A stretch of DNA of 20,773 nt from a virus. The position numbers and the translations under genes were made by a program. Each line of letters starts with the position of its first letter. Position 1 is the stretch's first letter. Below the pieces are notes generated by a model. That model did no database searches and was not told the DNA's origin. It saw nothing but the letters and a program-made list of their open reading frames with translations. Location of the stretch: positions 1 through 20,773 of IMG/VR virus record IMGVR_UViG_3300049825_000409; one strand, given 5' to 3'. Shown piece by piece: positions 1,087-20,773 of this stretch.

Positions 1087-2376
1087 CTAGTGGTAGCCTC
1101 CTACAGTGATGAACGAGGCGTCCTCGCCGACGACCGGCATGCCGTCGAGCGTCGCGCCGACGCGGATGCGGTCCTCAAGCCCTATGACTATGCGCACGTC
1201 GAACGTGAGTGACGCGAACAGTTGCTTGATCGTCTCGTCCGTGATCTGCAGCAGGTCGGTCAGCGCTCGGGTCTTCAGGAACGCCGTCACCGTGCCGTCG
1301 ATCAGGGTCAGCGAGTCGGTGGCGGCGATCACGCGGAGCAGCGTGCGGATCGTCTGGTCTGAGACGACGAGGTTGTCCGACGTCACGCGCCCGCGCGCGA
1401 CGCCCTTGACGCTGGCGTCCACGATCTGCGCCACGAGGTCGTCGAACCGTCGGTTGCGCACCGCGCCCGACACGCGCTCGTCAACGATCGTCAGCGACTC
1501 GTCCAACGAGCGGCGGCGCAGCATGTAGGTCGTCGTGCCGTCGCCGATAGTTAGAGTGTCCGAGGCGGTGCGGACGTAGATCGCCCCTGCACCCGTGATC
1601 TGAGAGAGCATGCCGTCGATGACCGTGATCGCATCGCCAAGGGCGCGCGTCAGCAGGCGCGAGAACACGTAGCCGTCGGAGACCGTGAGACTGTCGGAAG
1701 CCACCTTGTAGAGCTGACGGAAGAACGGGTCCGAGACGCTGACGGTGTCCACCTGCGTGCGCCCGCGCGTGACTCCAGAGACAAAGCCGTCGACCAGGAG
1801 CGTGTTGTCCGACGTGACGCGCCCGCGCACCACGCCGTCGAAGAGCTGGTCCGACACGAGCGTCGTGTCCGAGCCCTGCCGCTGGCGCAGGAGCCAGTCG
1901 AACAACTGGTCTAGGACGGTCAGGTTATCGACCATGTCCTTCGTGTAGACGGTTCCAGTGCCGCCCGGGATGAATATGCTAACGAGCTGATCGAACGCCG
2001 TAAGCAGGTCGCTGGTCACCCTGCCACGCACGATGCCGGAGATACGCTCGTCGATTACGGCGGCGCTGTCGGCGCGCAGCTTCAGCGCGATCTTGTTGGC
2101 TGAGTCGCTCACCGCCAGCGCGTCCGTCAGCAGCCGCGTGTCGCGCAGCCAGCGTGTGAGCTGGTCGAACGTGGTCAGCAGCTCCTGCACGTCCACCGTC
2201 CAGTAGAGCATGCGCCCCGTGTCCGTCATCGTGAGCGAATCCTGCCGGAGCTTCAGCGCGATCTTGTTGGCCGAGTCGCCGAGCACGAGTGAGTCGCTGT
2301 TGGTCTTGAGCACGATCGCCGCCGTGCCCTCATTCAGGCCAAAGCCCCCGTTGATGTCGTCTGCGTTGAACCGCAT
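1087..2376 (-). CDS. Repeat-rich fibre-like virion protein
   Basis: 429 residues from ATG 2374-2376, two bases after the upstream stop; an upstream TTG (2397) was not used because it lies inside the previous gene. Residues 26-392 are about 18 imperfect copies of a unit near 20 residues. The unit begins Asp-x-Leu-Thr-Val-x-Asp, then about seven variable residues, then often Leu-x-Arg-x-Arg (for example DSLTLIDGTVTAFLKTRALT and DNTLLVDGFVSGVTRGRTQV). The regular spacing of hydrophobic beta strands and Asp turns suggests an elongated, possibly trimeric or solenoid shaft. The last 37 residues (DVRIVIGLEDRIRVG onward) differ and look like a C-terminal cap. No enzyme motif is visible. Flanking fibre-like genes suggest a virion appendage. 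It lies between capsid and connector genes, so a head-attached fibre is as possible as a tail fibre. Confidence 0.65.
   Translation of the reverse strand: MRFNADDINGGFGLNEGTAAIVLKTNSDSLVLGDSANKIALKLRQDSLTMTDTGRMLYWTVDVQELLTTFDQLTRWLRDTRLLTDALAVSDSANKIALKLRADSAAVIDERISGIVRGRVTSDLLTAFDQLVSIFIPGGTGTVYTKDMVDNLTVLDQLFDWLLRQRQGSDTTLVSDQLFDGVVRGRVTSDNTLLVDGFVSGVTRGRTQVDTVSVSDPFFRQLYKVASDSLTVSDGYVFSRLLTRALGDAITVIDGMLSQITGAGAIYVRTASDTLTIGDGTTTYMLRRRSLDESLTIVDERVSGAVRNRRFDDLVAQIVDASVKGVARGRVTSDNLVVSDQTIRTLLRVIAATDSLTLIDGTVTAFLKTRALTDLLQITDETIKQLFASLTFDVRIVIGLEDRIRVGATLDGMPVVGEDASFITVGGYH
1201..2301 (-). repeat. About 18 tandem ~60-bp coding repeats
   Basis: This region encodes the ~20-residue Asp-x-Leu-Thr-Val-x-Asp repeats. 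Most units have diverged at DNA level, but some stretches remain nearly identical. One 23-base match is at 2078-2100 and 2249-2271. A second, 25-base match with one mismatch is at 1372-1396 and 1804-1828. This points to expansion by unequal recombination with some recent exchange. Unit limits are approximate because spacing varies from 18 to 27 residues. Confidence 0.7.
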
Positions 2377-2378
2377 GG

Positions 2379-3368
2379 TCAGGTGTCCACGATCCAACCA
2401 CCGTAGTCAATGCTCACGATGGAGTCAGTGAGTGTCGAGGCATAGAGCGCCGGGGCCAGCATCGCCGAGTTCGGCGGGATGTCAGTGGTGAAGAAGCTCG
2501 CAGCGTCGGCGATTGACGATATGTCCAGACGTCGCACGCGATAGTCGACCCTAGCTGCGGCGGGCGCTGCGCTCAACTCGAACATGTACCACGCCCCCGA
2601 CTGCACCGCGAAGAAACTGCCGAGCGACAGCTGCACGGCGGCGCCCGCGCCGTCGTTGCGCCAGATGCTCATCTCACGGCCGAACCCGCCCGACGTCGCC
2701 TGACCAACAGCGATGCCAGAGATTAGCGAGGATGGCGGGTGTACTGAATTCATGGCGCCCGTTGTGTTGACCAGCCCGACGAAGAAGTTGCCAGAGTTCG
2801 GCATAAATTCGAATCCGAACATTGTCAAGAACCGGAAACCTGCCTGCATAGTCGCCTGAAAGTTTGGCGAGAACAGCTTCACCGGAGCGTTCCCGGACAG
2901 CGCGCTCGTGAAGCGCGTGCGGTTCGCCATGGTGCGGGCCGATGAGTTCGAGAGCGTCACGGCCGCCTGCGTCGCGCCGGCAAATGTCGGCAGCGCCGTG
3001 CCCATCAGCTGGAACGACGTCGTGTTAAACGACGGGAGCACGTGCTGCCTGAACATCTTGTTATACTGCGCGAACTGCAGTGAGTCCGCCGTCAGTCTCA
3101 GCTCTACACGCGTGCCGGTGGCGAAGTTCGTCTGCGCCGTCGTGTTCTCCTGCCCCCGCAGAACGGTGAGCGTATCAGTCGAGATCGCGACAACCTTGCA
3201 CACCTCGACGTTCGTGCCGTCGTCCATCGTAACCATGTAGAAGTCCGGGGCGAGCGGCGTCGGGAACCGTGCGCCGTGCCCTGTCTGCAGCACGAGCGAC
3301 GCCGTGGCCGCCGACGAGATGGCCGTCGAGAGGGTGGACTTCGCGTTGTTCTTGAACAGCTGGAACAC
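2379..3368 (-). CDS. Fibre-like virion protein with conserved phage fibre N-terminal domain
   Basis: 329 residues from GTG 3366-3368, one base after the upstream stop. Residues 1-105 form a recognisable domain found at the start of many phage fibre or baseplate-wedge proteins. It runs MFQLFKNNAKSTLSTAISSA, a beta segment ending YMVTMDDGTNVEVCKVV, the signature LTVLRGQENTTA, then GTRVELRLTADSL. This domain usually anchors a fibre to the virion. The remaining 220 residues are beta-rich, with FGFEFMPNSGNFFVGLVNTTG and a C-terminal SIVSIDYGGWIVDT, and resemble a jelly-roll-like receptor- or glycan-binding head, though no specific family is certain. It is translationally coupled to the neighbouring fibre-like genes. 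It could decorate the head instead of the tail. Confidence 0.65.
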   Translation of the reverse strand: MFQLFKNNAKSTLSTAISSAATASLVLQTGHGARFPTPLAPDFYMVTMDDGTNVEVCKVVAISTDTLTVLRGQENTTAQTNFATGTRVELRLTADSLQFAQYNKMFRQHVLPSFNTTSFQLMGTALPTFAGATQAAVTLSNSSARTMANRTRFTSALSGNAPVKLFSPNFQATMQAGFRFLTMFGFEFMPNSGNFFVGLVNTTGAMNSVHPPSSLISGIAVGQATSGGFGREMSIWRNDGAGAAVQLSLGSFFAVQSGAWYMFELSAAPAAARVDYRVRRLDISSIADAASFFTTDIPPNSAMLAPALYASTLTDSIVSIDYGGWIVDT

Positions 3369-6175: not shown

Positions 6176-6739
6176 TTATCCCGTGTGCTGAATGTCGTGC
6201 GACCCTACCCGGATGCGCACGGTGAGGTTGAGCATGTCGGAAGCCTGAAGCGTGACGCCGAGGCCGTTCACGTGGTTACCGACGATGCCCGTGGTCGCGT
6301 GCGAGTTGGCGAAGTCGTGGATGGCCGCCGAGTCGAGCGCAACGCCCGTCAACGAGTCCGCTGCGCCGCCGAAGGTCGCAGTCAGCGCGATCCACTCCCG
6401 CGACTGGATGCCCGTGATGGCCGAGCTGGCGGGGTTCGCGATCGACGCGCGGCGTATCACCTCGCCGAGCGACGACTGCACCGAGTTGAGCGACCCCGCC
6501 TGCGTCGCCGTCCCGACGATGATGTAGTTGAACGGCGTCGTGCCCGTCGCCTGGATGGCGCGGTTCGCGATGCGGTTCAACCCACGGTCGGTGACGACGT
6601 TGCGGAGTACCTTCGACTCGATCGTCCCGTCAGCCCTGTGCACCTCGGCGATCCACTCCCCGTAGGGGAAGCTGAGGATCGTGTCATTGACTTTGTCGGG
6701 CCGGTGGTGCAACGGCGCGTCAGGCATACGGTGATTCAT
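6176..6739 (-). CDS. Putative virion (tail or fibre-associated) protein, 187 aa
   Basis: It starts at ATG 6737-6739, inside the last 20 bases of the glycosyltransferase fusion gene; AGGAGA lies about 12 bases upstream. The product has a short variable N-terminus, then beta-rich segments: GEWIAEVHRADGTIESKVLRN, VVTDRGLNRIANRAIQATG, NYIIVGTATQAGSLNSVQSS and a C-terminal LNLTVRIRVGS. The 'TDRGLNRIANRAI ... IVGTA' pattern recurs in phage structural proteins near fibre genes. I know no enzyme motif in it. Its place directly after the glycosyltransferase gene makes it a candidate target for glycosylation; many Ser/Thr residues fit, but that is inference. A second in-frame ATG at 6727 is possible but has a poorer context. 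Confidence 0.55.
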   Translation of the reverse strand: MNHRMPDAPLHHRPDKVNDTILSFPYGEWIAEVHRADGTIESKVLRNVVTDRGLNRIANRAIQATGTTPFNYIIVGTATQAGSLNSVQSSLGEVIRRASIANPASSAITGIQSREWIALTATFGGAADSLTGVALDSAAIHDFANSHATTGIVGNHVNGLGVTLQASDMLNLTVRIRVGSHDIQHTG

Positions 6740-9700
6740 AAAATTTGGTCGTCTCCTCTTGAAGTTTCCGGATCACGTGAAAGTAGAACTCCCGGCTGTG
6801 CCAGCGACCTTTGATCTCCAGGTCCTGCCCTAGCGCCGGAGCGTCGGGCTTCTGCGTCCGCATCTTGATCTCCGCGTCGAACCCGCCGTAGGCCATCTCG
6901 ACGCACAGCGAGTAGTACTGGCAGCCCTCGATGATCATGCGCGGCACGTTCCAGTCCACAATCTCCTCGTAGAGCTTGATGCCCTGCAACGCCTGCTCGC
7001 GCTGTCCGGGCACCAGCATGAAACCCGAGCGCTCCAGCTGGAACATCGCGCCCTGCGCGAGGTCCCTCAGGTACAGGAACTTGTTGAGCCTGCGCGTCGG
7101 GTTCTCCTGCAGGTCCTTTACGATCAGCGGGTAGTTGCGCGTGAAGCGCTTGCGTCGCGTAGGCTCGTCGACGTACCCAGCGTGGAGCAACTGCGCGTCG
7201 CCTCGCACCAGCGCGTGCTCGATACCGACGCCCATCTTGGTCTCTGGGTGCTCGTGCACGTAGCCGAAGAACTCGGCCTCGATGTCGCCGCGGAACAGTC
7301 GCGTCGGCATGTCGATGGTGAGCACCTGAGCGGGGAACGCTGAGTAGTGCACTTGAGGCATGCCCACGCCGTTGATGCCGCTGTTGCGCAGATGCTTCCA
7401 CAGCCCGAACGCGGGGCGCAGTTCCTCGTCGGCGTCGCACCAGAAACGCCAATCGCCGCAGGCGGGCTCCATCGAGCGGTTGCGTGCGGCCGCGAAGCCG
7501 CCCGTATCGACGTCGAGCGCCTTGAGCCCCTTGACCGCGCGGATCGGCCGGTACCAGAACTCCTCCTGCAACCGCTCTATCACCTCGGAAGTGCGGTCTG
7601 TCGTCGTTGGGTCGATGGCGATGATCAACTCGTCGACCGCGCGCACGAACGTCGAGACGCAGCGACGCAGCGTGTCCTCTCCGTCCTTCACGATCATACA
7701 GGCCGACACAGTCTGCCTCGGCGCCGTGTACTTGAACTTGCGGGCGTAGTCGATCTTGCCGATCTTCACCGGCTTGCCAATGGAGACGAGCTGATCATTG
7801 ACGACATCTGGCACGCGCTCTGGCTTCCAGAATGTGATCCAGGAGCCAAGCTGCCCGCCCGACGCGTCCTGCCCGGCGGGGGCGTAGCAGAGCTGAGCCT
7901 CCTTGCCGAACAAGTCACGCAGGTCAAAGTACTCGAAGTGGTGCACGTGCTCGCGCCCGCCCCAGTACGACTCGCCCTCGATGCCGTTCCACTCCCAGCG
8001 CCCGCACGGCGTGGTGAGCAGAAACGAGCCGTCGACGGCGAGCTTCGTGGCCAATTTCTGGAGCAGGTTCTTGTAGTCCCAGACGTGCTCGACGATCTCG
8101 GCGGCGATGATGAGATCGAACTCACCCACCAGTTCCGAGATGTCGGCCTGCGTGCCGATGGCGAAGTTCGCATTCTCCAGCTTCTCGCGCGTGCGCCAAC
8201 GCTCGGCCGCGTTGATCGCCTGCGGCGAGATATCCATACCGACGAACTCGACGTTCTGGAACATCGACGCGAGCGGAATGGTGTAGTGACCATGCGCGCA
8301 GCCGAAGTCGAGCACGCGCATGCGACGCGGGATGAACTGACCCGGGTCTTCCAGCTCTTCAAAATCAACTACCGGCGGACTTGCGTCAGCGGCAGCCAGC
8401 GCGTCCTGATAGACCTCGATCTTCTTCTCATGCTCCTGCTGCCGTTTGTCCTCACTGACCTGAAACAGCTGCACCGCCTCGTCCACGAACTGGTGGGCAC
8501 CGCGGAAGCGCGACGTGCCGGTGCAGTCCTCGCCCTGCGTCGCGAGCGCCGGGTTCGAGTCGTAGTACTTCTTCTGGTGAAACGCGTAGTGCTCGGCGTA
8601 GGCGGCTGGGTCCTCGATGAAACCGTAGAGCTTGGCGCGTTCCTGCTGCGCGGCGTGCGCGATATCGTCGTCACCCCAGACCTCCCCCTTGCTGTTCTTG
8701 TGGTCTTTTCTGTACTCATCGAACGCGCTCACGTCGCTGTGGTCGAGCAGGTGCCGCAGCATGTTCGCCGTCGTCTTGCGCCGGGCGAACAGGTCGTCGA
8801 CCACCGACTCGAACTCGTCAGCTGCGTTGGCCCAGCCGCGCGTCTTCGCCGACTCCAGCTGCCGCGCCGACTTCTTCGCCCACCACTCATCGGTCGGCGA
8901 CGACTTGGTGCGCTTCTCGACCCAGCGCACGAACGCCTTCTCGTCGGCCTTGCCGCCCGCGAGCGGTAGCAGCGTCACGCCGGAGCCCTCGCAGGTCTCG
9001 CTGAGCGCGCCGACGTCGGACGCCAGCATCGGCAGGCCAGCGTGCATCGCCTCCATCGCCGTGATGCACGACACCTCCTCGAACTCCGATGGGTAGATCA
9101 ACAGGTCGAGCGACATCTGCAACTGCGCGAGCGCGGCCTTGTCCAGCGCCCCGAGCAACGTCACGTTCGGCAGCGCGCGGGCCTGCTCGTACAGCGACTC
9201 GTAGAACGCGCGCATCTGGTCGACCGTGTTGTCGTAGCCGCAGACGAAGAGCCGCGCGTTCGGCGCCGACTTCGCGAGCTGCGCCATGATGCCGCCGGGC
9301 CGCACGAGGTGCTCCAGGCCGCGCTCGGGTCGCGACTGGTAGAGCATGTTGAACTCGGTCGCCGCGATCACGATCCCGGGCTTCCCCTCCTTGTCGACGT
9401 AGAACCCGGCCTTCTCGCCCTTCGCCACGAGGTCGGTGCGGTTGGCGTACAGCGCTGGGTCCACGCCGTTGCGCACCACGCGCACCGAATCCGGGTTGAA
9501 CCCATGCACGCCGAGAAACTGCTTCTTGTGCCACTCCGAGACGCAGGTGAAGGCCCCGACCTGCCACGACCCCTCAGCCAGCATCGGACCGTTGCGGTGG
9601 AGGGCGAGGTCGTGCATCTGGTGGACGCAGACCTTCGACGCCCAGCGCTTGTGGAACCCCATCGGGTGGCGCTGCACGAGCAGCACGTCGTGAGGGGTCG

Positions 9701-9944
9701 AGGTCGCGTAGAACTCGAACTTCTCGCCCATCGGGTGCTGCTGCGAGGCCGGCCCCGCCCAACAGTACTGAACACCGTCGAACGCGCCCTCCTTCTGCTC
9801 GTTCGTGAACACCGAGACGCGGTGCCCGCGCCGCGCCATCTCGAGCGCGAGGTAGTAGGCGGCCGACTCCGAGCCGCCGAGCGAGCGCTTCTTGATCGTG
9901 TCGCCGTTGAACGGCATGCCCATCGAGTGTATGACGAGTTCCAT
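6720..9944 (-). CDS. Three-enzyme fusion: GT4 glycosyltransferase - SAM methyltransferase - GT2 glycosyltransferase
   Basis: 1074 residues from ATG 9942-9944, one base after the upstream stop. The longer open frame to 10304 was rejected because it overlaps the previous gene. Residues 1-385 are a GT-B, GT4-like transferase: GGSESAAYYLALEMARRGH near the start and EEVSCITAMEAMHAGLPML (E-x7-E type) near 287-308. Residues ~400-535 are helical and unassigned. Residues ~540-700 are a class I methyltransferase: VLDFGCAHGHYT (SAM-binding), FVGMDIS, then FDLIIAAEIVEHVWDY. Residues ~744-900 are a GT-A, GT2-like transferase: VSACMIVKDGEDTLRRC, GGFAAARNRSM, and a DxD-type WCDADEEL. The C-terminal ~170 residues are helical (perhaps TPR-like). 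It probably builds and methylates a short glycan on an unknown acceptor. All three active-site motif sets look intact. No signal peptide or membrane span is seen, so it is probably cytoplasmic. Confidence 0.9.
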   Translation of the reverse strand: MELVIHSMGMPFNGDTIKKRSLGGSESAAYYLALEMARRGHRVSVFTNEQKEGAFDGVQYCWAGPASQQHPMGEKFEFYATSTPHDVLLVQRHPMGFHKRWASKVCVHQMHDLALHRNGPMLAEGSWQVGAFTCVSEWHKKQFLGVHGFNPDSVRVVRNGVDPALYANRTDLVAKGEKAGFYVDKEGKPGIVIAATEFNMLYQSRPERGLEHLVRPGGIMAQLAKSAPNARLFVCGYDNTVDQMRAFYESLYEQARALPNVTLLGALDKAALAQLQMSLDLLIYPSEFEEVSCITAMEAMHAGLPMLASDVGALSETCEGSGVTLLPLAGGKADEKAFVRWVEKRTKSSPTDEWWAKKSARQLESAKTRGWANAADEFESVVDDLFARRKTTANMLRHLLDHSDVSAFDEYRKDHKNSKGEVWGDDDIAHAAQQERAKLYGFIEDPAAYAEHYAFHQKKYYDSNPALATQGEDCTGTSRFRGAHQFVDEAVQLFQVSEDKRQQEHEKKIEVYQDALAAADASPPVVDFEELEDPGQFIPRRMRVLDFGCAHGHYTIPLASMFQNVEFVGMDISPQAINAAERWRTREKLENANFAIGTQADISELVGEFDLIIAAEIVEHVWDYKNLLQKLATKLAVDGSFLLTTPCGRWEWNGIEGESYWGGREHVHHFEYFDLRDLFGKEAQLCYAPAGQDASGGQLGSWITFWKPERVPDVVNDQLVSIGKPVKIGKIDYARKFKYTAPRQTVSACMIVKDGEDTLRRCVSTFVRAVDELIIAIDPTTTDRTSEVIERLQEEFWYRPIRAVKGLKALDVDTGGFAAARNRSMEPACGDWRFWCDADEELRPAFGLWKHLRNSGINGVGMPQVHYSAFPAQVLTIDMPTRLFRGDIEAEFFGYVHEHPETKMGVGIEHALVRGDAQLLHAGYVDEPTRRKRFTRNYPLIVKDLQENPTRRLNKFLYLRDLAQGAMFQLERSGFMLVPGQREQALQGIKLYEEIVDWNVPRMIIEGCQYYSLCVEMAYGGFDAEIKMRTQKPDAPALGQDLEIKGRWHSREFYFHVIRKLQEETTKFYESPYA

Positions 9945-9945
9945 G

Positions 9946-10374
9946 TCAGTACCCCCTCTCGAGCATGCGGCGCAGCTCAGGGTCGCGGTAAGCGCCAAGC
10001 AAGCTACCAACTTCGGCCTCAGCATGCTTGTGGAGTTGCGCCCCCAGAAAGTACTGCGCAATAGCGATCGCACGCGCAATGTCCACGGTCCCGGCCATGT
10101 GCGGATATATGCATCCATTCGGGTACGCGACGAAAACCGCCAAGCCATTCGGAACCAGCCCGAGGTTGTTGCCGTTGCTGAAGAGGTTAGGAAGCTCCTC
10201 GTTGACGAACTTGCGCAGCGCCTTGGCTGAGGCCACGTGCTGCGCGAGGGGGTCGACGGGCTGCGCCGCCCGCTTGTCCTGTTCACGGTAGTTGAGTTCG
10301 GCATTCGCCTTGCTCAGCTCCCCCTCGAGTTCCTGGACGCGCTTCTGCAGAGTCTGTTTTGTATCACTGCTCAC
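9946..10374 (-). CDS. Coiled-coil phage protein of unknown function (142 aa)
   Basis: It starts at GTG 10372-10374 with a strong AGGAGG (10380-10385) 5 bases upstream. Residues 1-33 (SDTKQTLQKRVQELEGELSK onward) form a charged coiled coil. The remainder includes HVASAKALRKFVNEELPNLF, a Gly/Asn-rich turn SNGNNLGLVPNG, and a helical IARAIAIAQYFLGAQLHKHA. I do not recognise the family. Its place between capsid and glycosyltransferase genes suggests a virion assembly or minor structural role. The hydrophobic stretches are too short or too polar for membrane spans. Confidence 0.6.
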   Translation of the reverse strand: MSSDTKQTLQKRVQELEGELSKANAELNYREQDKRAAQPVDPLAQHVASAKALRKFVNEELPNLFSNGNNLGLVPNGLAVFVAYPNGCIYPHMAGTVDIARAIAIAQYFLGAQLHKHAEAEVGSLLGAYRDPELRRMLERGY

Positions 10375-11036: not shown

Positions 11037-11996
11037 TTACTGGCTGGAGTTCACCGCCACGATCAGGAACCCGTACTCGGGCGCCGTGACCTTCTCGTCC
11101 TGGTAGTACCCGACCTCGGCCTTCTCGGACTTGGTCTCGCTGTTGCGCGGGTGGATCTCACCCTGCATGTTGGCGAGCCCCGGCCGCTGCCAGCGGAACG
11201 AGTACGCGAAGGACGGGTCCTCGATCGTCGGCGAGGGCGGTGCGTAGTACACCAGCACGTTGTGTGCCCAGACTGGCGTCACCGCCTCGGCCTGCGCCTC
11301 GTTGGCGTTCGAGAAGAACGACTCACCGACCAGGATCTGGTCGACCTCGAACAGCGCCGCCACCTGCTGACGGCTCACGTAGCCGCCGCCGTTGTTGACG
11401 CCGTAGATGAGGTTGCGCACGTTCGCCGTACGGCGGAACGAGTCCCACGCCCGCGCCCCGAACACGATCCTGTTCGGCCTGTACCCCGTGCGGTAGAGCA
11501 CGTTGTCGATGGCCGCGTTGACCGAGTTGAGGGGCGTGTCCGCGGTGCCCGCGCCGTTCCAGGCCGAGCTGACCGTCGCCGAGGACCCGACGTTCGCCGT
11601 CGAGTTCACGGTGAGCGAGATGCGCTGGTCCCAGTCCAGCATCAGCTTGCCGGTGAGGTACTGCGTGCGGCCTGTGACCAGCTGCATGTAGTACGACTCG
11701 TCCATGTTCGCGAGGTCCTCGTCCGTGATCGCTGTCGACAGGGCGTAGTTCTTCGCGTAGTAGGAACCGCTCGAGACCGAGCGGGTGATCTGGCGCGCGT
11801 ACGTGCCCGGCGCGCGGCTCGTCTCCTCGACGTTGAGAGCCTCCTGCCTCGACCAGATGTTGTAGAGATCCGACTGCTTGGCGACAGTGACGATCGGGAA
11901 GATTTGATCGGCAATGGCGCCGCGCGGGCGGTACCCGATGGCCATCTGCGTGATGACCTTGTTGATGTGGAGATCTTGACCGACTGAAGTACCCAT
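11037..11996 (-). CDS. Major capsid protein
   Basis: 319 residues from ATG 11994-11996, with GGGAGG 11 bases upstream. The N-terminus (INKVITQMAIGYRPRGAIAD then QIFPIVTVAKQSDLYNIW) and the later NRIVFGARAWDSFRRTANVR, VSRQQVAALFEVDQILVGES and WAHNVLVYYAPP are typical of one large group of HK97-fold capsid proteins often labelled 'major capsid protein' or 'DUF5309/Mu gpT-like'. The length fits. It follows protease/scaffold and decoration genes, the standard order. It forms the shell that holds the genome. No long N-terminal delta domain is visible, consistent with a separate scaffold. The stem-loop after the gene suggests its message is handled specially, fitting a protein needed in hundreds of copies. 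Confidence 0.9.
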   Translation of the reverse strand: MGTSVGQDLHINKVITQMAIGYRPRGAIADQIFPIVTVAKQSDLYNIWSRQEALNVEETSRAPGTYARQITRSVSSGSYYAKNYALSTAITDEDLANMDESYYMQLVTGRTQYLTGKLMLDWDQRISLTVNSTANVGSSATVSSAWNGAGTADTPLNSVNAAIDNVLYRTGYRPNRIVFGARAWDSFRRTANVRNLIYGVNNGGGYVSRQQVAALFEVDQILVGESFFSNANEAQAEAVTPVWAHNVLVYYAPPSPTIEDPSFAYSFRWQRPGLANMQGEIHPRNSETKSEKAEVGYYQDEKVTAPEYGFLIVAVNSSQ

Positions 11997-12014: not shown

Positions 12015-12380
12015 TTAGAATGACAATGTGCCCTGAGGCGCAAAGCTGAACATGCCCGCGAAGAGGTCGCCAGAGTTGGCCGCCTCCAGCGCCCTGCCGC
12101 ACCCGGTGTGGCCCGAGGTCGCGGAGATCATGTACCCGGACGTGGTCGTCATGACCCTCGCCCCGATCGCGATCGACGCACCCGCCCACGCCTTCATGTA
12201 GCCGGAGATGCCCATGGAGACGCCGGCACCGATGGGGCCGCGCGACTTCAGGAGGCCTGCCGCCAGCACGTCTGTCGACGCGATGGTCCCGTTGACGTTG
12301 ATCGCCCGGTGGAGTGGAATGGCCGACAAGTCGACCGTGGTCTCGACCGGGACTGCTACGTATTCGCCTTCTGTTGCCAT
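12015..12380 (-). CDS. Head decoration / capsid cement protein (DUF2190-like)
   Basis: 121 residues from ATG 12378-12380, three bases after the protease stop. The sequence is Gly/Ala-rich and beta-predicted. It has an N-terminal EGEYVAVPVETTVDLSA, a middle run of Gly-rich strands (GVSMGISGYMKAWAGAS) and a C-terminal CGRALEAANSGDLFAGMFSF. The last motif (G-R-A-L-E-A-A) is characteristic of DUF2190-type proteins, which bind the outside of phage capsids and stabilise them. Position between protease/scaffold and major capsid protein is the usual one for decoration genes. It is therefore expected on the capsid surface. Confidence 0.75.
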   Translation of the reverse strand: MATEGEYVAVPVETTVDLSAIPLHRAINVNGTIASTDVLAAGLLKSRGPIGAGVSMGISGYMKAWAGASIAIGARVMTTTSGYMISATSGHTGCGRALEAANSGDLFAGMFSFAPQGTLSF

Positions 12381-12383
12381 GGC

Positions 12384-12932
12384 TCAGCGGCCTCCCGGGA
12401 TCGAATCCATCCACGCTCGGACCGAGGCTCGGTTGGCGCGCGCGAACTTCGCTGCGTCCTCCGGACCCCAGACCTTGCCCTTGTCCTCGAACTCCTTCTG
12501 CTGCTCCGCGATGGCCTCAGCGAGCTCGTCGCCCGGCGTCGACTCCGCCTGACGCTCCTCCTGTGACCCGCCGCGAGTGAACGCCGCCCGACTCGCCGCG
12601 CCGCGCTTCCCGGCCATCGCCGAGATCGCCTCGTCGACGTCCGCGCTCGTCACGCCCAGCACTGCGGCGTCGTCGCCGAAGCGCAGAAGCTTCTCGCCCG
12701 TGTCGCGCTGAGCCGACGTGATCCGGCCCTCCTTCACGGCGCGGTCGAACTGCGCCTTGCGCTCGTCGCGGTGCTTGTTGATCGTCGCGCGCTTCTCGGC
12801 GGCCGCTGCGGCCTCCTGCGAGCGCTTGAACTCGGCCTTCTCGGCGTCGAGAGCCTTGCGCTCGGCTTCGATCTTGACCTCCGCGACCGTCAGATCGCGC
12901 AATTTGTCGTTATCCGTCTTTTCCTCTGCCAT
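12384..12932 (-). CDS. Nested scaffold protein from an internal start (182 aa)
   Basis: ATG 12930-12932 lies in frame inside the protease gene at Met169, with AGGAGA (12943-12948) 10 bases upstream. The product starts MAEEKTDNDKLRDLTVAEVK and is almost entirely coiled coil, ending with DSIPGGR. The arrangement is like Mu gpI/gpZ and lambda C/Nu3, where the scaffold is made in excess of the protease from the same frame. The scaffold would organise capsid subunits and then be degraded. Use of this start is inferred from the ribosome-binding site and the family precedent. Confidence 0.6.
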   Translation of the reverse strand: MAEEKTDNDKLRDLTVAEVKIEAERKALDAEKAEFKRSQEAAAAAEKRATINKHRDERKAQFDRAVKEGRITSAQRDTGEKLLRFGDDAAVLGVTSADVDEAISAMAGKRGAASRAAFTRGGSQEERQAESTPGDELAEAIAEQQKEFEDKGKVWGPEDAAKFARANRASVRAWMDSIPGGR

Positions 12933-13436
12933 GACTTTCTTGTCTCCTGTCGGTGATTCCCGCCGGCTGAAGACCACGCGCTGCGCGAAGGTGATGCCTT
13001 CCAAGCGCCGCGCCATGGTCAACGACTGTAGGTCTTTCAGGTTGCTGACGGCGGGTATGTCAGCTCCCAGTAGCGCCACTGCGTCAAGAACCGCGGCGAA
13101 TGACTCGCCGCCGACCTTGCTGTCCAGCAACACCTCGGAAGAAACGAACTTGTAGAGCCCCTTTCGGATCGCCTCGTAGACGATCGTTGGGATGTCGGTG
13201 AAGTCGGCGAGCAGCCTCTGCCCGTCGCGCCACACGCGCTGCACCCAGCCGAGCGCGGGGTGCCCATCGGTCACGGACTGCTCGGCGTTGTGCCCGAGCT
13301 TGAGCGGCACGCGCCCGGCCTGATTGAGCGCGGCGAAGGCGCGCACCATGTCGTCGAGCGTCGACTCGTCGAACGTGACGACCTGCGACCCCTCCCAGGT
13401 GCCGACCGCGAGGATCTCTGCGTTCTTGAGGTCCAT
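12384..13436 (-). CDS. Mu gpI-like head maturation protease with C-terminal scaffold
   Basis: 350 residues from ATG 13434-13436, whose A is shared with the upstream stop; a GTG one codon earlier is also possible. Residues 1-165 form the protease: LKLGHNAEQS with candidate catalytic His49, then GHPALGWVQRVW, and VSSEVLL with a Ser99-Ser100-Glu101 motif as likely nucleophile region. This matches the Mu gpI-like family that cleaves scaffold during head maturation. Residues ~169-350 are a charged coiled coil rich in Glu, Lys and Ala (EAERKALDAEKAEFKRSQEA), as in scaffold proteins. Protease and scaffold are encoded in one frame, and the scaffold probably is also made alone from an internal start at 12932. 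The product acts inside the prohead and is removed before DNA packaging. Confidence 0.85.
   Translation of the reverse strand: MDLKNAEILAVGTWEGSQVVTFDESTLDDMVRAFAALNQAGRVPLKLGHNAEQSVTDGHPALGWVQRVWRDGQRLLADFTDIPTIVYEAIRKGLYKFVSSEVLLDSKVGGESFAAVLDAVALLGADIPAVSNLKDLQSLTMARRLEGITFAQRVVFSRRESPTGDKKVMAEEKTDNDKLRDLTVAEVKIEAERKALDAEKAEFKRSQEAAAAAEKRATINKHRDERKAQFDRAVKEGRITSAQRDTGEKLLRFGDDAAVLGVTSADVDEAISAMAGKRGAASRAAFTRGGSQEERQAESTPGDELAEAIAEQQKEFEDKGKVWGPEDAAKFARANRASVRAWMDSIPGGR
12943..12948 (-). promoter_or_regulatory. Internal ribosome-binding site for scaffold
   Basis: AGGAGA within the protease coding sequence, 10 bases before an in-frame ATG at the junction between protease and coiled-coil parts. 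It falls where a separate scaffold product should begin. Confidence 0.55.
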
Positions 13437-13693
13437 CACGCACCTCCCGGGCCGAGCTTGAACATGGCCAGCGCGTGCGCGATCGACGCCTCGGGGTGGT
13501 TCTGGCGGAACCGCGTGATGAACGCCTCCTGCGTCTCGTAGACCTTCGGGCGCCGCTTGCGCTCCAGGGTCGCGCGGTCCCACATGGCGTAGCACACGGC
13601 GGACGCTTGGTCCTGCTCGCGACCCCTGCCCACCTCGTGCTCGATGCAGCGCGAGATGAAAGCCTTCTCGCCCTCGGCGTCGCTTGGATTCAT
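13436..13693 (-). CDS. Small phage protein with PDQ/DQ-type Cys motif (85 aa)
   Basis: ATG 13691-13693 overlaps the upstream stop as ATGA. The product begins MNPSDAEGEKAFISRCIEHE and has the arrangement FISRC ... DQASAVCYAMWDRA, close to a short motif (ISRC-x-DQ-x-AVCY-x-W) seen beside or fused to phage head proteases. The last part, YETQEAFITRFRQNHPEASI, resembles a helix pair. It directly precedes the protease gene, as such proteins often do. It may help prohead maturation; the biochemical role is unknown. Confidence 0.6.
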   Translation of the reverse strand: MNPSDAEGEKAFISRCIEHEVGRGREQDQASAVCYAMWDRATLERKRRPKVYETQEAFITRFRQNHPEASIAHALAMFKLGPGGA

Positions 13694-14138: not shown

Positions 14139-14296
14139 GACTGCACACTCGCTCCTACGAACACGAAGCCCGGCCGCGTCTGCACCCATATCAGCACGCG
14201 CCCTGCGATCAGCAGCACGCCGTTGTCGCCGAAGTCGATGATGGTGTGGCCCCACTCGTCCACCCGCTTGGAGACAGCTTTGAGCTTGATTCTCAC
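14135..14296 (-). CDS. Tiny beta-rich protein (53 aa), unknown
   Basis: GTG 14294-14296 overlaps the radical SAM stop as GTGA and its stop overlaps the next ATG. The product, VRIKLKAVSKRVDEWGHTII and onward, is short, beta-predicted and ends FVFVGASVQS. It is the first gene after the radical SAM enzyme and could be its substrate or partner, since such peptides are often encoded beside these enzymes. I see no leader-peptide signature or conserved Cys, so this remains open. Confidence 0.5.
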   Translation of the reverse strand: MRIKLKAVSKRVDEWGHTIIDFGDNGVLLIAGRVLIWVQTRPGFVFVGASVQS

Positions 14297-15075
14297 GCCG
14301 CCACCACCTTGATTCGGCGCAGTTCGCGGTCGCGCAGCGCGTGCTCCTTCAGCGTTCCCGCCTCGGGGCGCGGCACGTCGGCGAGCGGGAAGCCCACGGC
14401 TTGATCGCAGCCGTGGCACAGCTCGTAGGGCGAGACGTACAGCTCCTCCAGCGGCTGGTCGACGTGCCCCACCACGCCGACGCCCGAGGCGTCGAAGCTG
14501 CACGTGGTCAGGCGGCCGTCGGCCATCGCCATCACCCAGCCGCTCTTCACCCAGTCGCACTCGCGGCGCCCGAACCTGTTCTGCGCCGTCACGCGCCACG
14601 CGACCTGCCCAGCCCAGTCCGTCGAGGAGAGCACCGCGTCGTTCGAGTAGCCGGCGAGCAGCCCGCAGTCCATGAAGAGGTCGTACGCGACCTTCGCACG
14701 CTCGGGGCGGTGGAGCGAGACGAACACGCGCGGGCGCAGGGGGAGCAGCGCGCGCACCATCGCCTCGTCCACCGCCACGCCGTTGGTCGCGAACACTAGG
14801 TCGAAGCCCTCGCCCAACGCCTCGCGCGCCATCGCCACGTACTCCACGAACCGGGGGTGGATCGTCGACTCCCCGATGCCGGCGAGGTTCAGCGAGCGCT
14901 GCCCGTGCTCGTCCCGGCACTCCAGCGCGAGGTCCAGGGCGCGCGCGAAGTGCTCCGGCGTCATGTCCACCTTCGGCCGCGCGAGGTACGGCGACGCGCA
15001 GTAGGAGCAGCGCAGGTTGCACCTCGAGGTGATCTCGATCTGGTGCACGGCGCGGACAGGCTCGCGGTGGATCAC
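14293..15075 (-). CDS. Radical SAM enzyme with SPASM/twitch-like C-terminus
   Basis: 260 residues from GTG 15073-15075, one base after the upstream stop. Residues ~17-24 hold the radical SAM motif C-x3-C-x2-C (CNLRCSYC) that binds the [4Fe-4S] cluster, near the N-terminus as usual. GIGESTIHPRF follows, matching the 'GGEP' position of the family, then the SAM barrel strands (FDLVFATNGVAV, PRVFVSLHRP). Near the C-terminus a Cys (TTCSFDASG) and a CHGC pair form a reduced SPASM/twitch arrangement that may bind an auxiliary cluster. Relatives modify peptides, proteins or sugars by radical chemistry. Its substrate is unknown. It sits inside a head operon, between a Cys-rich phage protein and tiny genes. 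The core is shorter than a full SPASM enzyme, so a single auxiliary cluster is more likely than two. Confidence 0.85.
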   Translation of the reverse strand: MIHREPVRAVHQIEITSRCNLRCSYCASPYLARPKVDMTPEHFARALDLALECRDEHGQRSLNLAGIGESTIHPRFVEYVAMAREALGEGFDLVFATNGVAVDEAMVRALLPLRPRVFVSLHRPERAKVAYDLFMDCGLLAGYSNDAVLSSTDWAGQVAWRVTAQNRFGRRECDWVKSGWVMAMADGRLTTCSFDASGVGVVGHVDQPLEELYVSPYELCHGCDQAVGFPLADVPRPEAGTLKEHALRDRELRRIKVVAA

Positions 15076-15947: not shown

Positions 15948-16210
15948 GCAAACCCCCATCGCGCACGCTGCGCGGTCAGTATCTCTCTCAGCTGCCTTCC
16001 CAGGTCGGCGCGTATGACGCCGTCGTCCCGGACGTACTTCTCGACCGTGACCGTGTCGCGCTTGCCGGCGACGAAGTTGATCGCGCTCTGCACCTCGAAC
16101 TGGTGGTCGCGGCACACCGAGGCGAAGCTCGGCTTGCGCGTGACGTGCGCCCTGCGCAGCATCGCAGCCACCTCAGGCGTCGGAACGACGTGCTCGTAGA
16201 CCCTCTTCAC
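15944..16210 (-). CDS. Small basic protein after the portal-MuF gene (88 aa)
   Basis: GTG 16208-16210 overlaps the portal stop as GTGA, which fixes this start over the longer open frame that runs into the portal gene. The product begins VKRVYEHVVPTPEVAAMLRR and is rich in Arg and Lys (RAHVTRKPSFASVCRDHQF, KRDTVTVEKYVRDDGVIRAD). The last third is helical (LGRQLREILTAQRARWGF). It could bind nucleic acid or be a small assembly factor. I recognise no family. Confidence 0.6.
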   Translation of the reverse strand: MKRVYEHVVPTPEVAAMLRRAHVTRKPSFASVCRDHQFEVQSAINFVAGKRDTVTVEKYVRDDGVIRADLGRQLREILTAQRARWGFA

Positions 16211-18921
16211 TGCGCGCCACCCCCGAACCCGTCCTGTGGCTGCACGCCGGGGTCCGGCGACTCCTGTCCGTCCCAGCCGTCGACGGCCGTGATGGGGACG
16301 AGCAGCGAACGGCAGTTGTAGTGGTTCGGCGGCCGGTACGTGTCCCACATCTCGGAGTCCGTCGCCCACGTCGCGTCGCTCAGCGCCGAGCAGATCTCAG
16401 TGGTGCGGTCGTCGAGGATCGCGCTATAGCGCAGCGCCACGACGAAGTCGCCGAGCGCCGGGTCGGTGAACTCCTGGTAGCGCGCCTCGTTCATCGCCTC
16501 GAACGTGTTGGTGCGCACGAGCGTGTTGAGGTACGCCGCCGCGCCCTCGACCGTGTCGACCCAGAGCGCGTCGAGCACGGCGTTGACGGCCGCGTCCGTC
16601 TCGACGGCCTGCACCGCGCCGCGCGTGAGGATGCCCTTCGACACGAGCCGGTCCCAGATGTTGGCGCGCGTCTGCTTCGGGCTCATGCCGTTCTTCACGG
16701 CGCTCAGCAGCTCCTGCTGGATGATCGCCTTCGTGGCGTCGCTCGCGTTGCCAGCCATGCGGAAGCCGTTGGCCGAGAGGAACTCGGCGGCGCGGTCGCG
16801 CAGCGCCTCCAGCTGCGCCCGACTGGTGAAGTGCCCGCCGCGCGCTCGCTCCAGCTCGTTCTTGGCCATCGAGGAGCCGACGTCCCAGGAAGTGCGAAGG
16901 GCGTCCACGAACACCGAGCGCAGCTTGCCGATGGTGGGTCCGTCCAGCGCGACGTCTGCGATCTGGGCCACGTTGGCGTCCGTGTACTCCGAGACGTCGG
17001 TCGCGCCGGTCGCCTTCTTCACGCCGCGCGCGATCACGTCCGCGGCCGACGGCACCGTGCGCTGAAGGATGGACTCCTCGCGGGCCGCGATGACGGCGAA
17101 GTTCACGCGCTGCACGGCGCGGGAGAAGGAGGCGCGCTTTGACAACCCCGCCTTACGACGACCAACCTCTTTAGCGCTCTTCCAAAGCATGTGGCTGATA
17201 CCACTAATGTCAGACTCCAGCCTAGGACCGACGTTGGCTGATCCTGAATTCCAGATGCCGTCACCTGGCTTGGAGCCTACGTTCCAAACGTCGTCGCCAG
17301 CCTGTTGCAAAACATTAGCTATTTCCTTTGGGCTCAACTCGCCCCCGCTTAGCCGATCATGCAACCCGGTGAGAATACCAGCCACCTTTGAGGCAGCTTC
17401 TGTTGGTACTTTAGAAACATCGCCCGCGGTACGCTCCGCAAAGGCATGCATGGAATCAATGTGTCCCGCTATCTCAGTCAACACGCCACTATCTGTGCCT
17501 GACTCGCCAAATCGTCCGCGCTCATCCCGCGGATGCTTCGACTCATCGAACTCGAACGTGGCGCGCGAGTACGTCGCAGCGGCCTTCGCCTTGTCCTGCG
17601 GGGACTGGGGCTTCTGACCCTGCCCGAACGGGTTGCCCTTCGCCGCCACCTCGATCGCCTTGGCGTGAGCCTCGTCCTGCGCGGCCTGGATCTCCTCGGG
17701 CGTCTTGGCCGGCATCTCGAGTATCTGCCGCAGCCGCTCCTCGTCTTCTGGCGTGGTCGTCACGGCCTTCTTGCCGACGAGGTCGCTCCACGCGGTCACG
17801 ATCCACTTCACGTGCTCCAGGCTCGCGGGCTTGAAGCAGAACTCGGGCACCCGCCCGTCCGGGAACAGCGCCTCGCCCGCGTCCTTCAACACCTGCTCGG
17901 TCATGACGGACGAGAGCCGCCGCGACGTCGCGTTCAGCGTCCAGAAGAACGCCTCCAGCTGCGTCTGGCTCTGCGCGTAGGCGCCGGTTTGCCCCGCGAC
18001 GCTGACGCCGAGCAGGTTCGGCACGAGCATCGACTTGGCGATGGCGAGGTCGTGGAACTGGATGGCCTTCTCGAAGCCGTCGCCCGAGGGCGGCTGGATC
18101 ATCTCGAGGTCGATGCCCACCGGGAGCAGGATGGAGCCCACCGTCTTGATCTGCGAGAGCGCCGTCTGCAGCTTGTCCCACGCGGGGGTGTTCGGCTGCA
18201 CCTGCGCCTCGGCCGTGCGCGTCGCCTTCACGAACCCGCCCGCCGCGCGCTCGCCCCATATGAGCCAGTACTTGATCAGCAGGTCCTTCGCGTAGTACGA
18301 GCGGTAGGCGGCGCGCAGCTCGCTGGTCCCGTACCACTCGTCCTCCTCCGGGGCGTGGACGTAGTGCACGAACTTGCCGAGGTCGAGCGACTGCTCCTTG
18401 CCCGAGACCTTCTGCTTGAAGTCGATCAGCTGGCCGTAGTCGTCGGTGTAGAACCAGAACGTGGAGCAGTCCTTGGGGAGCAGCGCCACGATGCCCGACT
18501 GCGGGCGGCCCTCGAACTCGAAGAGCCCGTAGGCTTTCTCCGTGATCGAGTAGCCGTAGGTGAGCCCGGACAGAATCGCGTTCAGCTTGTCGACGAGCGC
18601 GCCCTTCATAGAGTTGAGCATGCGCGTCAGCATCGCCGCGCGCTTCTGCTTCTCAGCGTCGCTCAGCTTCGAGTCCGTCGGCCAGTCGAGCACCCAGTCG
18701 CGGCTCGTCACCGCGTCGCGCTTGAACGTGACCGCCGCCTTCACCTGCTCGTCGATCATCATCTTCTGGTAGATGCGCAGCCCGTGCCGCTGCACCAGCG
18801 AGTCGGGGTTGTAGCGCGGGAAGTCGGCCGAGGAGAACAGCGCCGTGTTCTCCCACGCGACGACCGCGTCGTCCGCGCGGTTGGCGGGGAACGCCTGGAC
18901 CTTGAGCTTGCCGTTTGCCAA
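16207..18921 (-). CDS. Portal protein (DUF935-like) fused to MuF head-morphogenesis protein
   Basis: 904 residues from TTG 18919-18921, two codons after the upstream TAG in the same frame; GGGGAGG lies about 11 bases upstream. Residues 1-455 are the portal: RHGLRIYQKMMIDEQVKAAV, AVTSRDWVLDW and DLAIAKSMLVPNLLGVSVAG are typical of the DUF935/Mu gp29 group, which forms the ring for DNA entry. Residues ~453-470 hold a linker motif, DESKHPRDERGRFGESG, of a kind seen at domain borders in phage head proteins. Residues ~469-594 are an insert of lower GC. Residues ~595-904 are MuF: LVRTNTFEAMNEARYQEF, LDDRTTEICSALSDATW, and YRPPNHYNCRSLLVPI. In Mu these are two genes, gp29 and gpF. The C-terminus is Gly/Gln-rich. 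Confidence 0.9.
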   Translation of the reverse strand: MANGKLKVQAFPANRADDAVVAWENTALFSSADFPRYNPDSLVQRHGLRIYQKMMIDEQVKAAVTFKRDAVTSRDWVLDWPTDSKLSDAEKQKRAAMLTRMLNSMKGALVDKLNAILSGLTYGYSITEKAYGLFEFEGRPQSGIVALLPKDCSTFWFYTDDYGQLIDFKQKVSGKEQSLDLGKFVHYVHAPEEDEWYGTSELRAAYRSYYAKDLLIKYWLIWGERAAGGFVKATRTAEAQVQPNTPAWDKLQTALSQIKTVGSILLPVGIDLEMIQPPSGDGFEKAIQFHDLAIAKSMLVPNLLGVSVAGQTGAYAQSQTQLEAFFWTLNATSRRLSSVMTEQVLKDAGEALFPDGRVPEFCFKPASLEHVKWIVTAWSDLVGKKAVTTTPEDEERLRQILEMPAKTPEEIQAAQDEAHAKAIEVAAKGNPFGQGQKPQSPQDKAKAAATYSRATFEFDESKHPRDERGRFGESGTDSGVLTEIAGHIDSMHAFAERTAGDVSKVPTEAASKVAGILTGLHDRLSGGELSPKEIANVLQQAGDDVWNVGSKPGDGIWNSGSANVGPRLESDISGISHMLWKSAKEVGRRKAGLSKRASFSRAVQRVNFAVIAAREESILQRTVPSAADVIARGVKKATGATDVSEYTDANVAQIADVALDGPTIGKLRSVFVDALRTSWDVGSSMAKNELERARGGHFTSRAQLEALRDRAAEFLSANGFRMAGNASDATKAIIQQELLSAVKNGMSPKQTRANIWDRLVSKGILTRGAVQAVETDAAVNAVLDALWVDTVEGAAAYLNTLVRTNTFEAMNEARYQEFTDPALGDFVVALRYSAILDDRTTEICSALSDATWATDSEMWDTYRPPNHYNCRSLLVPITAVDGWDGQESPDPGVQPQDGFGGGAQ
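17140..17515 (-). other. Low-GC insert within the portal-MuF gene
   Basis: By counting, 17161-17220 and 17281-17340 each have 29 G+C in 60 bases, against 46 in 60 for 16561-16620. The insert lies between portal and MuF parts, keeps the frame, and encodes about 125 residues (IDSMHAFAERTAGDVSKVPT, LSPKEIANVLQQAGDDVWNV) of mostly helical and Gly/Trp-containing sequence. Base use suggests separate ancestry from the flanks. Confidence 0.6.
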
Positions 18922-18924
18922 CGT

Positions 18925-19221
18925 CTACCCAGCCTCCCCAGTTGAAAGTCCGTGACCGCGGACGCCGGGCGCCGTCGCATCCGGTGCCGGTGCATTGTGC
19001 GAGTGGGCCGGGGTACTGTCGCCCCCGACGCCCGCAGTCACGGGGCTGATCGCCGCCCTGAGCAACGCAATCTGCGCTTTGCTCAAGACAATCGTGGTGC
19101 TCTCGTCGTACTCGTACCGCTGGCAACAGCCGGGGCACTTGCCCGCGCCATAGGGACGAAGGTAAAACTTGGTGTCACAGATCTCACAGTCGAACTCATC
19201 ACCTTTTCGCTTAGTCACCAC
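18925..19221 (-). CDS. Zinc-ribbon protein between terminase and portal genes
   Basis: 98 residues from GTG 19219-19221, overlapping the terminase stop by 7 bases. Residues ~9-40 are a zinc ribbon: FDCEICDTKFYLRPYGAGKC with a following CPGC, so two Cys-x2-Cys pairs. The rest is a Thr/Leu helix (SKAQIALLRAAISPVTAGV) and a flexible, Ala/Pro/His-rich tail. Its stop (TAG) is in the same frame as the portal gene and only one codon ahead of the portal TTG, so the two may once have been, or be read through as, one protein. Small zinc-binding proteins near terminase genes can act in packaging, but its role is unknown. Confidence 0.65.
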   Translation of the reverse strand: MVTKRKGDEFDCEICDTKFYLRPYGAGKCPGCCQRYEYDESTTIVLSKAQIALLRAAISPVTAGVGGDSTPAHSHNAPAPDATAPGVRGHGLSTGEAG

Positions 19222-20773
19222 GCCTTCTCCAGGTCAGCGCCCACGCCGCCGATCGTCATGATCTCGTCCGCCCGCCCGCCCTGCACCTGCGCGCCGGTGA
19301 TCAGAGCCGGGGCCATGGACGACCACTGCATGGAGAGCGAGTCGGCCATGTCCGGGCTGAAGCCGAGGCGCAGCACCAGCTCGTCCTTCGTCTCGAGGTC
19401 CTCCACCCGGTCGCCGTTGTCCTTGGTGCGGATGGCGCACAGCTGCGCCTCGAGGTCGTCCCAGTCGGCCTCGTCCTCCAGGAACTTGTCGTCGAACTCC
19501 AGCAGCCCGTCGCGCAGCACGTTGCGCAGGGACATGTACGACTGCACGCGCTGGTTGCGCCACCTGGCAGGGACCGCGCTCTTCGCCCCGCCCTGGTGGA
19601 ACACCACGGGGTACTCGCGCTTCAGCAGCTCGCCCGCCGCGCCGAGGCCGACGCCGATCGCGTCCACGACGAACGTGTCGCCGTTCGCCGCACTGCACCC
19701 CATGTCCTTCCACATCATCACCGCCGCGTCGGCCGTCTGCTGCGTGGCGCGCTCCAGCTCAAAGCTGAATCGGCGCATGCGCCGCGCGACGACCTTCGAC
19801 TGGTGATGGTCGCAGAGCGTGACGATGGTCTCGGCGCTGCCGCCGCCCGCGCAGTCGACGCTGACCTTCCGGCGGGGGATCGAGCCGTCGGCGAGCCCGT
19901 CCTTGTTGCGCGCGTTGTTGACCCACTGCAGCGCCAGGAGCTGCCCCGGCTCGTCCGACGCGAACTCCCCGAACACGCGCACCTTCACGACGGGGGAGTT
20001 GCGCCCGTACTTGTCGATGAGGCGCTGCGCCCACCTGCGCGACACGCGCCGCGACTGCTCGAAGCCGATCTTGTAGGTGAAGTAGTTCCTGGACTCCTTC
20101 GCCTTGAGGTGCGAGTCGGCGAACGTGCCCGTGCGCTGCGTGGGGTTGGAGATCATCACGAGGATCTGCACCACGCCGGTCGAGAGCGCGCCGAAGATCA
20201 CGGGGAACAGCGCCTCGGGGACGCCGGTGGCCTCCTCCACGATCACAAGCTGGTAGGTCTCGTGGTGGCCCGCGAGGTTCTCCGGGGTCTTGGCCGTCTC
20301 CCCCAGGATGCAGTAGTTGCGGTCGCGGCTGCCGTCCTCGTTGAACCAGTAGCAGGTGGTGTCGCCCATCTCGTGCGTCGCCCGGTACCAAGGCTCCGCG
20401 CGCTGATCGATCTTGTGGATAGCCGCGAAGAGGCGCGTCTTGACCTGGTCGAACTTCGGGGCGGTGACGATGACGCGCCCCGGAAAACACGCTTGGAACA
20501 CGTGCGCGATGAGCGCGGCGGTGTGCGTCTTGCCAGGGCCGTGGCCCGAGCAGACGCTGATCTGCGTCTTGCGCTCGTGGTTGATGCGGGTCTTCGCGCG
20601 CCACACGTCGGCGACCGCGTCGACTAGGTCCACCTGCAGCTGGTCGAGCTCCCAGGAGCGGCCGGGGTCCTGCTCGAGCGTCGGCTCGCCCTTGAGCGCC
20701 CGGTGCCGCAGCGCCTGCCGGCAGACCACCTCGACCGGGTCCTCGCGGCGCGCGAGGATCCAGCGCTCGAGGA
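19215..20773 (-). CDS. Terminase large subunit (5' end outside window)
   Basis: The frame is open to the right edge, so the N-terminus is missing; a GTG at 20729 is only an internal codon. It has a Walker A (SGHGPGKTHTA), a Walker B with the catalytic acid (LVIVEEATGV), and a coupling motif (ISNPTQRTGTF), the ATPase part. The nuclease half has three acidic sites: VSVDCAGGG, FVVDAIGVGLG and SPDMADSL. This is the standard large terminase that packages DNA into proheads and cuts concatemers. The order fits other phage packaging modules. The small terminase gene should lie further to the right. About 518 residues are visible, near full length for this family. Confidence 0.9.
   Translation of the reverse strand, partial: LERWILARREDPVEVVCRQALRHRALKGEPTLEQDPGRSWELDQLQVDLVDAVADVWRAKTRINHERKTQISVCSGHGPGKTHTAALIAHVFQACFPGRVIVTAPKFDQVKTRLFAAIHKIDQRAEPWYRATHEMGDTTCYWFNEDGSRDRNYCILGETAKTPENLAGHHETYQLVIVEEATGVPEALFPVIFGALSTGVVQILVMISNPTQRTGTFADSHLKAKESRNYFTYKIGFEQSRRVSRRWAQRLIDKYGRNSPVVKVRVFGEFASDEPGQLLALQWVNNARNKDGLADGSIPRRKVSVDCAGGGSAETIVTLCDHHQSKVVARRMRRFSFELERATQQTADAAVMMWKDMGCSAANGDTFVVDAIGVGLGAAGELLKREYPVVFHQGGAKSAVPARWRNQRVQSYMSLRNVLRDGLLEFDDKFLEDEADWDDLEAQLCAIRTKDNGDRVEDLETKDELVLRLGFSPDMADSLSMQWSSMAPALITGAQVQGGRADEIMTIGGVGADLEKAW

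Follow-up and report, generated by a model that had tools for sequence, protein, structure and literature searches.

A GT4-methyltransferase-GT2 fusion encoded behind the capsid gene of an environmental phage lineage, a candidate virion glycan synthase

What does a protein that joins two glycosyltransferases (GTs) and a methyltransferase in a single chain do inside the structural operon of a phage? The question is raised by the IMG/VR virus record IMGVR_UViG_3300049825_000409, a 20,773-base sequence classed as linear and analyzed here over its whole length (the window). A preliminary description, made from the sequence alone, had noticed a 1074-residue frame carrying a GT4-like transferase, a class I methyltransferase and a GT2-like transferase, each with intact motifs. 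Translation places this frame, positions 6720-9944, on the minus strand, which the description had not given, and yields 1074 amino acids followed by a stop; a plus-strand reading was ruled out by four stops in that frame. An open frame of 1194 amino acids reaches further upstream, and homologues align from the ATG at 9944, which lies one base past the stop of the upstream gene and is preceded by the purine-rich sequence gagaggggg. Pfam recovered all three domains: Glyco_transf_4 and Glycos_transf_1 within residues 23-325 (1.4e-12 and 7.1e-12), Methyltransf_23 at residues 538-678 (3.3e-19) and Glycos_transf_2 at residues 747-845 (9.1e-9). Folding with AlphaFold, a check that the description had proposed, gave one confident fold with three domains for the whole chain (mean pLDDT 91.4, pTM 0.89; 64-sequence alignment). 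Catalytic columns are invariant across 64 diverse homologues of 29-51% identity, for example E298 of the GT4 EX7E motif, G548 and G552 of the methyltransferase, and D837-x-D839-E840 and H897-E898 of GT2; position 290 of the EX7E motif is E or D, and D546 and D571 of the methyltransferase are kept in at least 90% of the sequences. Close pairs of fusions have dN/dS values of 0.055-0.155. The presence of a three-enzyme fusion is therefore confirmed, far beyond chance.

To place each domain, we compared it with solved structures and curated families. The N-terminal domain has the GT-B fold and EX7E motif of GT4 enzymes, and its modeled structure, for which PimA (1.1e-16) and MshA were the top Foldseek matches, resembles an ordinary retaining sugar transferase. 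The central domain has the Rossmann fold, the motif I and the acidic residue after strand 2 that characterize class I S-adenosylmethionine (SAM) methyltransferases; its profile matches in the PDB cover many substrates, a D-glucose O-methyltransferase (6uv6) among them. The third domain combines a GT-A fold and a DXD motif with a narrow set of nearest solved relatives. Among the best 60 matches of a PDB profile search, the only GT2 structures were GmaR (2.4e-27), SunS (1e-22) and ThuS (3.1e-18); a single-sequence search returned GmaR (7.7e-13), and the GT2-type matches of the fold comparison were SunS and ThuS. GmaR adds N-acetylglucosamine to flagellin (PMC9638930). The domain scores 27.5 bits against the NCBI SunS equivalog TIGR04195, for which the cut-off is 350 bits, and is thus not a SunS. 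Based on these sequence and model comparisons, we suggest that the closest kin of the GT2 domain are protein and peptide glycosyltransferases, and the whole chain is best classed as a putative variant of virus-encoded glycan synthase outside any named family.

The fusion as a single-sequence query found no match in IMG/VR. Relatives were first fetched with portal and capsid queries (37 loci), and the alignment of their fusions was then used as a profile. Many of these 37 loci hold full-length fusions of 33-46% identity, and in this set the fusion is present on every contig that extends far enough past the capsid gene; one contig (L012) stops within the radical SAM gene that precedes the fusion position. 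The profile search identified 325 IMG/VR contigs encoding relatives, of which 80 were kept. These viral contigs are fragments, with genes called by simple scripts. Both genes can be seen in 87 loci (80 distinct contigs), and in every one of these the fusion follows downstream on the strand of the capsid gene, at a distance of 13-1735 bases. It appears, then, to be carried by nearly all members of a large lineage of environmental phages, in a set place behind the capsid gene. The claim that such a fusion is rare in phage genomes holds for GenBank, where none of 50,697 phage records contains a full-length copy, and fails for environmental phages; none of the papers covered by a literature search describes a GT4-methyltransferase-GT2 fusion. 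Matches in BFVD suggest that GT/methyltransferase multi-domain proteins of other layouts also exist among environmental phage proteins. The structural setting first described is likewise borne out: the window encodes, on the same strand and in this order, a terminase, a Mu-type portal with a Mu F domain, a head protease, the capsid protein, the fusion and a tail-fibre-like gene (o8), and a virion-gene setting of this sort is constant in the lineage.

These observations provide the basis for a model in which the fusion, as an analogue of the chlorovirus protein A064R, is probably the synthase with which the phage builds a glycan on a virion protein. The methylated glycan on a virion protein that had been proposed from the sequence remains the best reading of the three intact domains, the virion-gene context and a GT2 domain that resembles protein glycosyltransferases. 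We favor a virion protein as the putative acceptor because of the capsid-linked place of the gene and the kinship of its GT2 domain, and a sugar product because of the optional tailoring genes described below. The synthase would act in the host cytoplasm during particle assembly. Its GT2 domain, as kin of GmaR and SunS, would prime the reaction by placing the first sugar on a side chain of the virion protein, the GT4 domain would add a second sugar, and the methyltransferase would cap or tailor the glycan by O-methylation; a chain that holds all three enzymes would prevent the intermediates from being lost to one another. Many relatives also encode BtrN-like radical SAM enzymes, one to three in number, which may oxidize or epimerize a sugar; further decoration may come from methyltransferases of the FkbM or class I type or from sulfotransferases. 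The benefit could be shielding of the particle or adsorption. We infer the order of GT2, GT4 and methyltransferase from the domain families, and the acceptor, the sugars, the methyl position and the benefit are proposed in the same conditional sense.

The candidate tailoring enzyme of the window is a radical SAM protein whose gene (14293-15075) the preliminary description had left unmentioned in its account of the fusion. It has a CX3CX2C motif (C19, C23 and C26) and four auxiliary-cluster cysteines (C173, C192, C220 and C223). All seven cysteines are invariant in 41 sequences, the pattern of a BtrN-like twitch enzyme with one auxiliary 4Fe-4S cluster, and BtrN is the top PDB match of the family by profile (6.6e-17) and by Foldseek (4.3e-11). 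No match was found among GenBank phages. The gene occurs at three sites, between portal and protease, between the capsid gene and the fusion, or after o8, and at least one copy is present in 12 of 18 large records. An identity in anti-phage defence (viperin, MADS) was rejected: the PADLOC matches reflect shared radical SAM and methyltransferase folds only, and BtrN outscores viperin by both profile and fold. In the same region, some other loci encode an FkbM methyltransferase, a class I methyltransferase, a Sulfotransfer_3 sulfotransferase or a short-chain dehydrogenase. Sulfotransferase-like P-loop genes were seen near the fusion in five loci (L113, 9318-9977; L037, 12070-12669; L088, 16082-16669; L097, 946-1617; L101, 11995-12588); only that of L037 passes the Pfam cut-off (Sulfotransfer_3, 9.8e-10), and the others were judged by reading.

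Which virion protein might carry the glycan? The acceptor should be common to all members of the lineage, and the likely candidates are the conserved proteins of head and neck, the major capsid protein for instance. The portal, the protease, the capsid protein and the small protein encoded at 12015-12380 are common to all members, the few apparent absences being faults of simple gene calling, as tblastn finds these genes. The tail-fibre-like gene o8 overlaps the end of the fusion by 20 bases and follows it in many relatives, not all; it was rejected as a universal acceptor, being missing from 11 of 29 long loci, and is less likely to serve as acceptor for that reason. Small open reading frames between the capsid gene and the fusion were also set aside, as most are not Ser/Thr-rich and they are poorly conserved. 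In many loci these frames are short and charged and often start M-L-T-P-x-x-x-D-P-N-R/Y, a recurring small head gene. A comparison of protein distances singled out no acceptor; the strongest partial correlation of the fusion was with the portal (0.47).

We then examined bacterial genomes. Homologous fusions in bacterial cell-wall loci had been named as a finding that would speak against a virion role, and none of the eight fusion loci in GTDB genomes is of that kind: six lie in phage structural gene clusters, and two stand alone beside a helix-turn-helix (HTH)-type repressor. Bin errors are possible in these metagenome-assembled genomes (MAGs). In one deltaproteobacterial MAG (G019), a structural cassette running from terminase to tail genes and including the fusion occupies ~384-402 kb of a 982-kb contig (C4; L128). 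Phage homology is confined to this stretch of ~20 kb, host-like genes lie on both sides (L127 and L129), and there is no integrase within 90 kb of the cassette; the flanking names argF, bioD, transketolase and nuoF/G are readings of translations, and only Mrr was checked with Pfam. A second deltaproteobacterial MAG (G024) has a collinear cassette (L134, C189) with a capsid protein 75% identical, which ends beside genes read as atpB and hemL and has no fusion between the capsid gene and the next gene. Its fusion is found on other contigs, in two pieces (L046, C285; L135, C296), with genes for an HTH-type repressor and for a uracil-DNA glycosylase close by. In a SAR324 MAG (G023; L040, 3790-8377), the fusion lies beside an S24/HTH repressor among TauD, GntR and GFA genes, and no capsid gene was found in that MAG. 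The repressors of G023 and G024 are 62% identical. The MAG loci look like a gene-transfer-agent (GTA)-like or degraded state, and the G019 cassette is either a GTA-like element or a prophage remnant. We count both G019, with the fusion inside its cassette, and G024, with the fusion apart from a compact cassette that lacks it, in favor of the virion-glycan synthase. A broader scenario can be offered only tentatively and is rather doubtful as a whole: that a widespread uncultured phage lineage has its own virion-glycan pathway, with synthase, BtrN-like tailoring, sulfation and methylation, and that deltaproteobacteria, and perhaps also SAR324, domesticated the particle as a GTA-like element, the synthase having moved beside an HTH-type repressor in one genome.

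Several points weigh against a virion glycan synthase. On two MAG contigs the fusion lies apart from structural gene clusters, and 6 of the 18 large records have no radical SAM gene. The protein-distance comparison gave a partial r of 0.06 between fusion and capsid, with no special link over other head proteins. The GmaR/SunS match may be biased, since GT2 enzymes acting on lipid or sugar acceptors may be equally close and have no solved structures. Finally, neither a glycan nor an acceptor has been observed, the case being built on sequence and predicted structure.

Four other explanations were weighed against this background, and all are weaker. The one that survives best, although still unlikely, is that the fusion alters a host envelope glycan, lipopolysaccharide (LPS) or exopolysaccharide (EPS), so as to exclude superinfection or change the receptor, its location in the late operon being a matter of timing only. 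Phage seroconversion genes are well known, LPS and EPS loci often contain GT4 enzymes of this type, and the fusion itself matches LPS and EPS families. However, neither a flippase nor a polymerase gene was noticed in the surroundings, the place of the gene is strictly capsid-linked, the GT2 domain is closest to protein glycosyltransferases, and the fusion has been retained together with structural cassettes that have no integrase close by. Less probable again is a host protein or appendage, flagellin or pilin, altered during infection; the precedent of GmaR on flagellin (PMC9638930) speaks for it, but an acceptor supplied by the phage agrees better with the conservation of the fusion throughout a lineage that occurs in MAGs from several phyla and with its position in a late head operon. 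BtrN belongs to the synthesis of an aminoglycoside, butirosin (PMC10991966), and SunS makes glycocins, so that fusion and radical SAM enzyme might together produce an aminoglycoside-like small molecule or a glycocin-like glycopeptide. We consider this very unlikely, as neither an aminocyclitol synthase nor a precursor peptide or an exporter was noticed and the radical SAM gene is optional while the fusion is constant. Radical SAM enzymes take part in some base hypermodification pathways, and the most improbable proposal is that the fusion glycosylates hypermodified phage DNA. Glycosyltransferases acting on modified bases are classic in T-even phages (PMC9614988), but thymidylate synthase-type genes, the sole base-modification marker searched, occur in only 2 of the 18 large records, the gene lies in the head operon and not in a nucleotide module, and its GT2 domain groups with protein glycosyltransferases.

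The features of the window are collected in Table 1. The small gene at 12015-12380, conserved between those for the protease and the capsid protein, may encode a capsid decoration-like protein, a name suggested by its position and size. Between the portal and radical SAM genes, positions 15501-16115 (minus strand) encode a protein that bears a twin-arginine motif (RRQLLTGVVGAAVALPLAA), matched weakly by Pfam TAT_signal. At 1087-2397 (minus strand) lies a gene for a long Ser/Thr-rich repeat protein with recurring DSLTVSD-like units, with kin in 33 loci; it is a possible fibre and candidate glycan acceptor.

Table 1. Coordinates of the fusion, its domains and neighboring genes in the window.
Feature	Positions	Strand	Evidence
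GT4-methyltransferase-GT2 fusion, 1074 aa, ATG 9944	6720..9944	-	translation, Pfam, homologue alignment, AlphaFold2
GT4 (GT-B) domain, residues 1-395; EX7E = E290/E298; RPERGL 205-210	8760..9944	-	Pfam, Foldseek
Class I SAM methyltransferase domain, ~residues 536-690; motif I LDFGCAHG (545-552)	7875..8339	-	Pfam, invariant columns
GT2 (GT-A) domain, ~residues 742-965; DXD = D837-A-D839-E840; VHEHPE 896-901; HxGY 921-924	7050..7721	-	Pfam, GmaR match
Fusion C-terminal helical and beta region, residues 966-1074	6723..7049	-	AlphaFold2 secondary structure
Terminase large subunit, runs off contig	19215..20771	-	phrog_2 2.4e-26
Mu-type portal fused to Mu F-like head morphogenesis domain	16207..18921	-	Pfam 1.4e-36, 3.6e-13
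BtrN-like radical SAM enzyme	14293..15075	-	Pfam 5.9e-13; BtrN by profile and fold
Head maturation protease/scaffold, start approximate	12384..13445	-	phrog_976 1.5e-28
Small conserved gene, flanked by those for protease and capsid	12015..12380	-	homologues in 18 loci (tblastn)
Major capsid protein	11037..11996	-	phrog_1005 2.2e-60; Pfam Phage_cap_E
Small gene directly upstream of fusion; no family match	9946..10374	-	gene list, PHROG/Pfam scans
o8, tail-fibre-like gene	6176..6739	-	phrog_4176 1.1e-5, phrog_5417

Glycosylation of phage virions has so far been shown in few systems. The mycobacteriophages Che8, Corndog and Myrna encode enzymes that add sugars to capsid and tail tube proteins (PMC12363180, PMC11256854); glycosyltransferases are described there, but no three-enzyme fusion. 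The wide occurrence of the present fusion suggests that in nature glycosylation of phage particles may be common, and its single-chain format makes the virion-glycan hypothesis directly testable without phage culture. The metagenomic podovirus ctKR88 (MW202524.1, 1656-11978; L126) likewise has an array of glycosyltransferase and methyltransferase genes after its capsid gene, but these comprise a GT2-TPR-GT4 protein and separate genes, with 27% identity to the fusion over GT4 only. BtrN, a 2-deoxy-scyllo-inosamine dehydrogenase and twitch radical SAM enzyme, likewise has four extra cysteines for one auxiliary cluster; it shares only ~19% identity with the radical SAM family, and the enzyme of the window is phage-borne. 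GmaR, SunS and ThuS are nearest to the GT2 domain by profile, single sequence and fold, and GmaR aligns at DADE, HE and HxGY; unlike the fusion, they have neither a GT4 nor a methyltransferase domain, and their acceptors are flagellin and bacteriocin peptides. The closest design is found in chloroviruses, in which PBCV-1 A064R (GT-GT-methyltransferase) assembles the terminal portion of the capsid glycan and A111/114R consists of three glycosyltransferases, GT-GT-GT (PMC7826918, PMC9614988). A064R differs from the fusion in belonging to a eukaryotic virus, in its length of 638 aa, in its GT-GT-MT order in place of GT4-MT-GT2 (MT, methyltransferase) and in its N-linked glycan, and the two are compared by design, not by sequence. 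Like A064R, with its two glycosyltransferases and methyltransferase used on the capsid glycan, the fusion is one virus-encoded chain of several transferases, which suggests that a similar multi-enzyme design was reached both in phages and in the giant viruses of algae.

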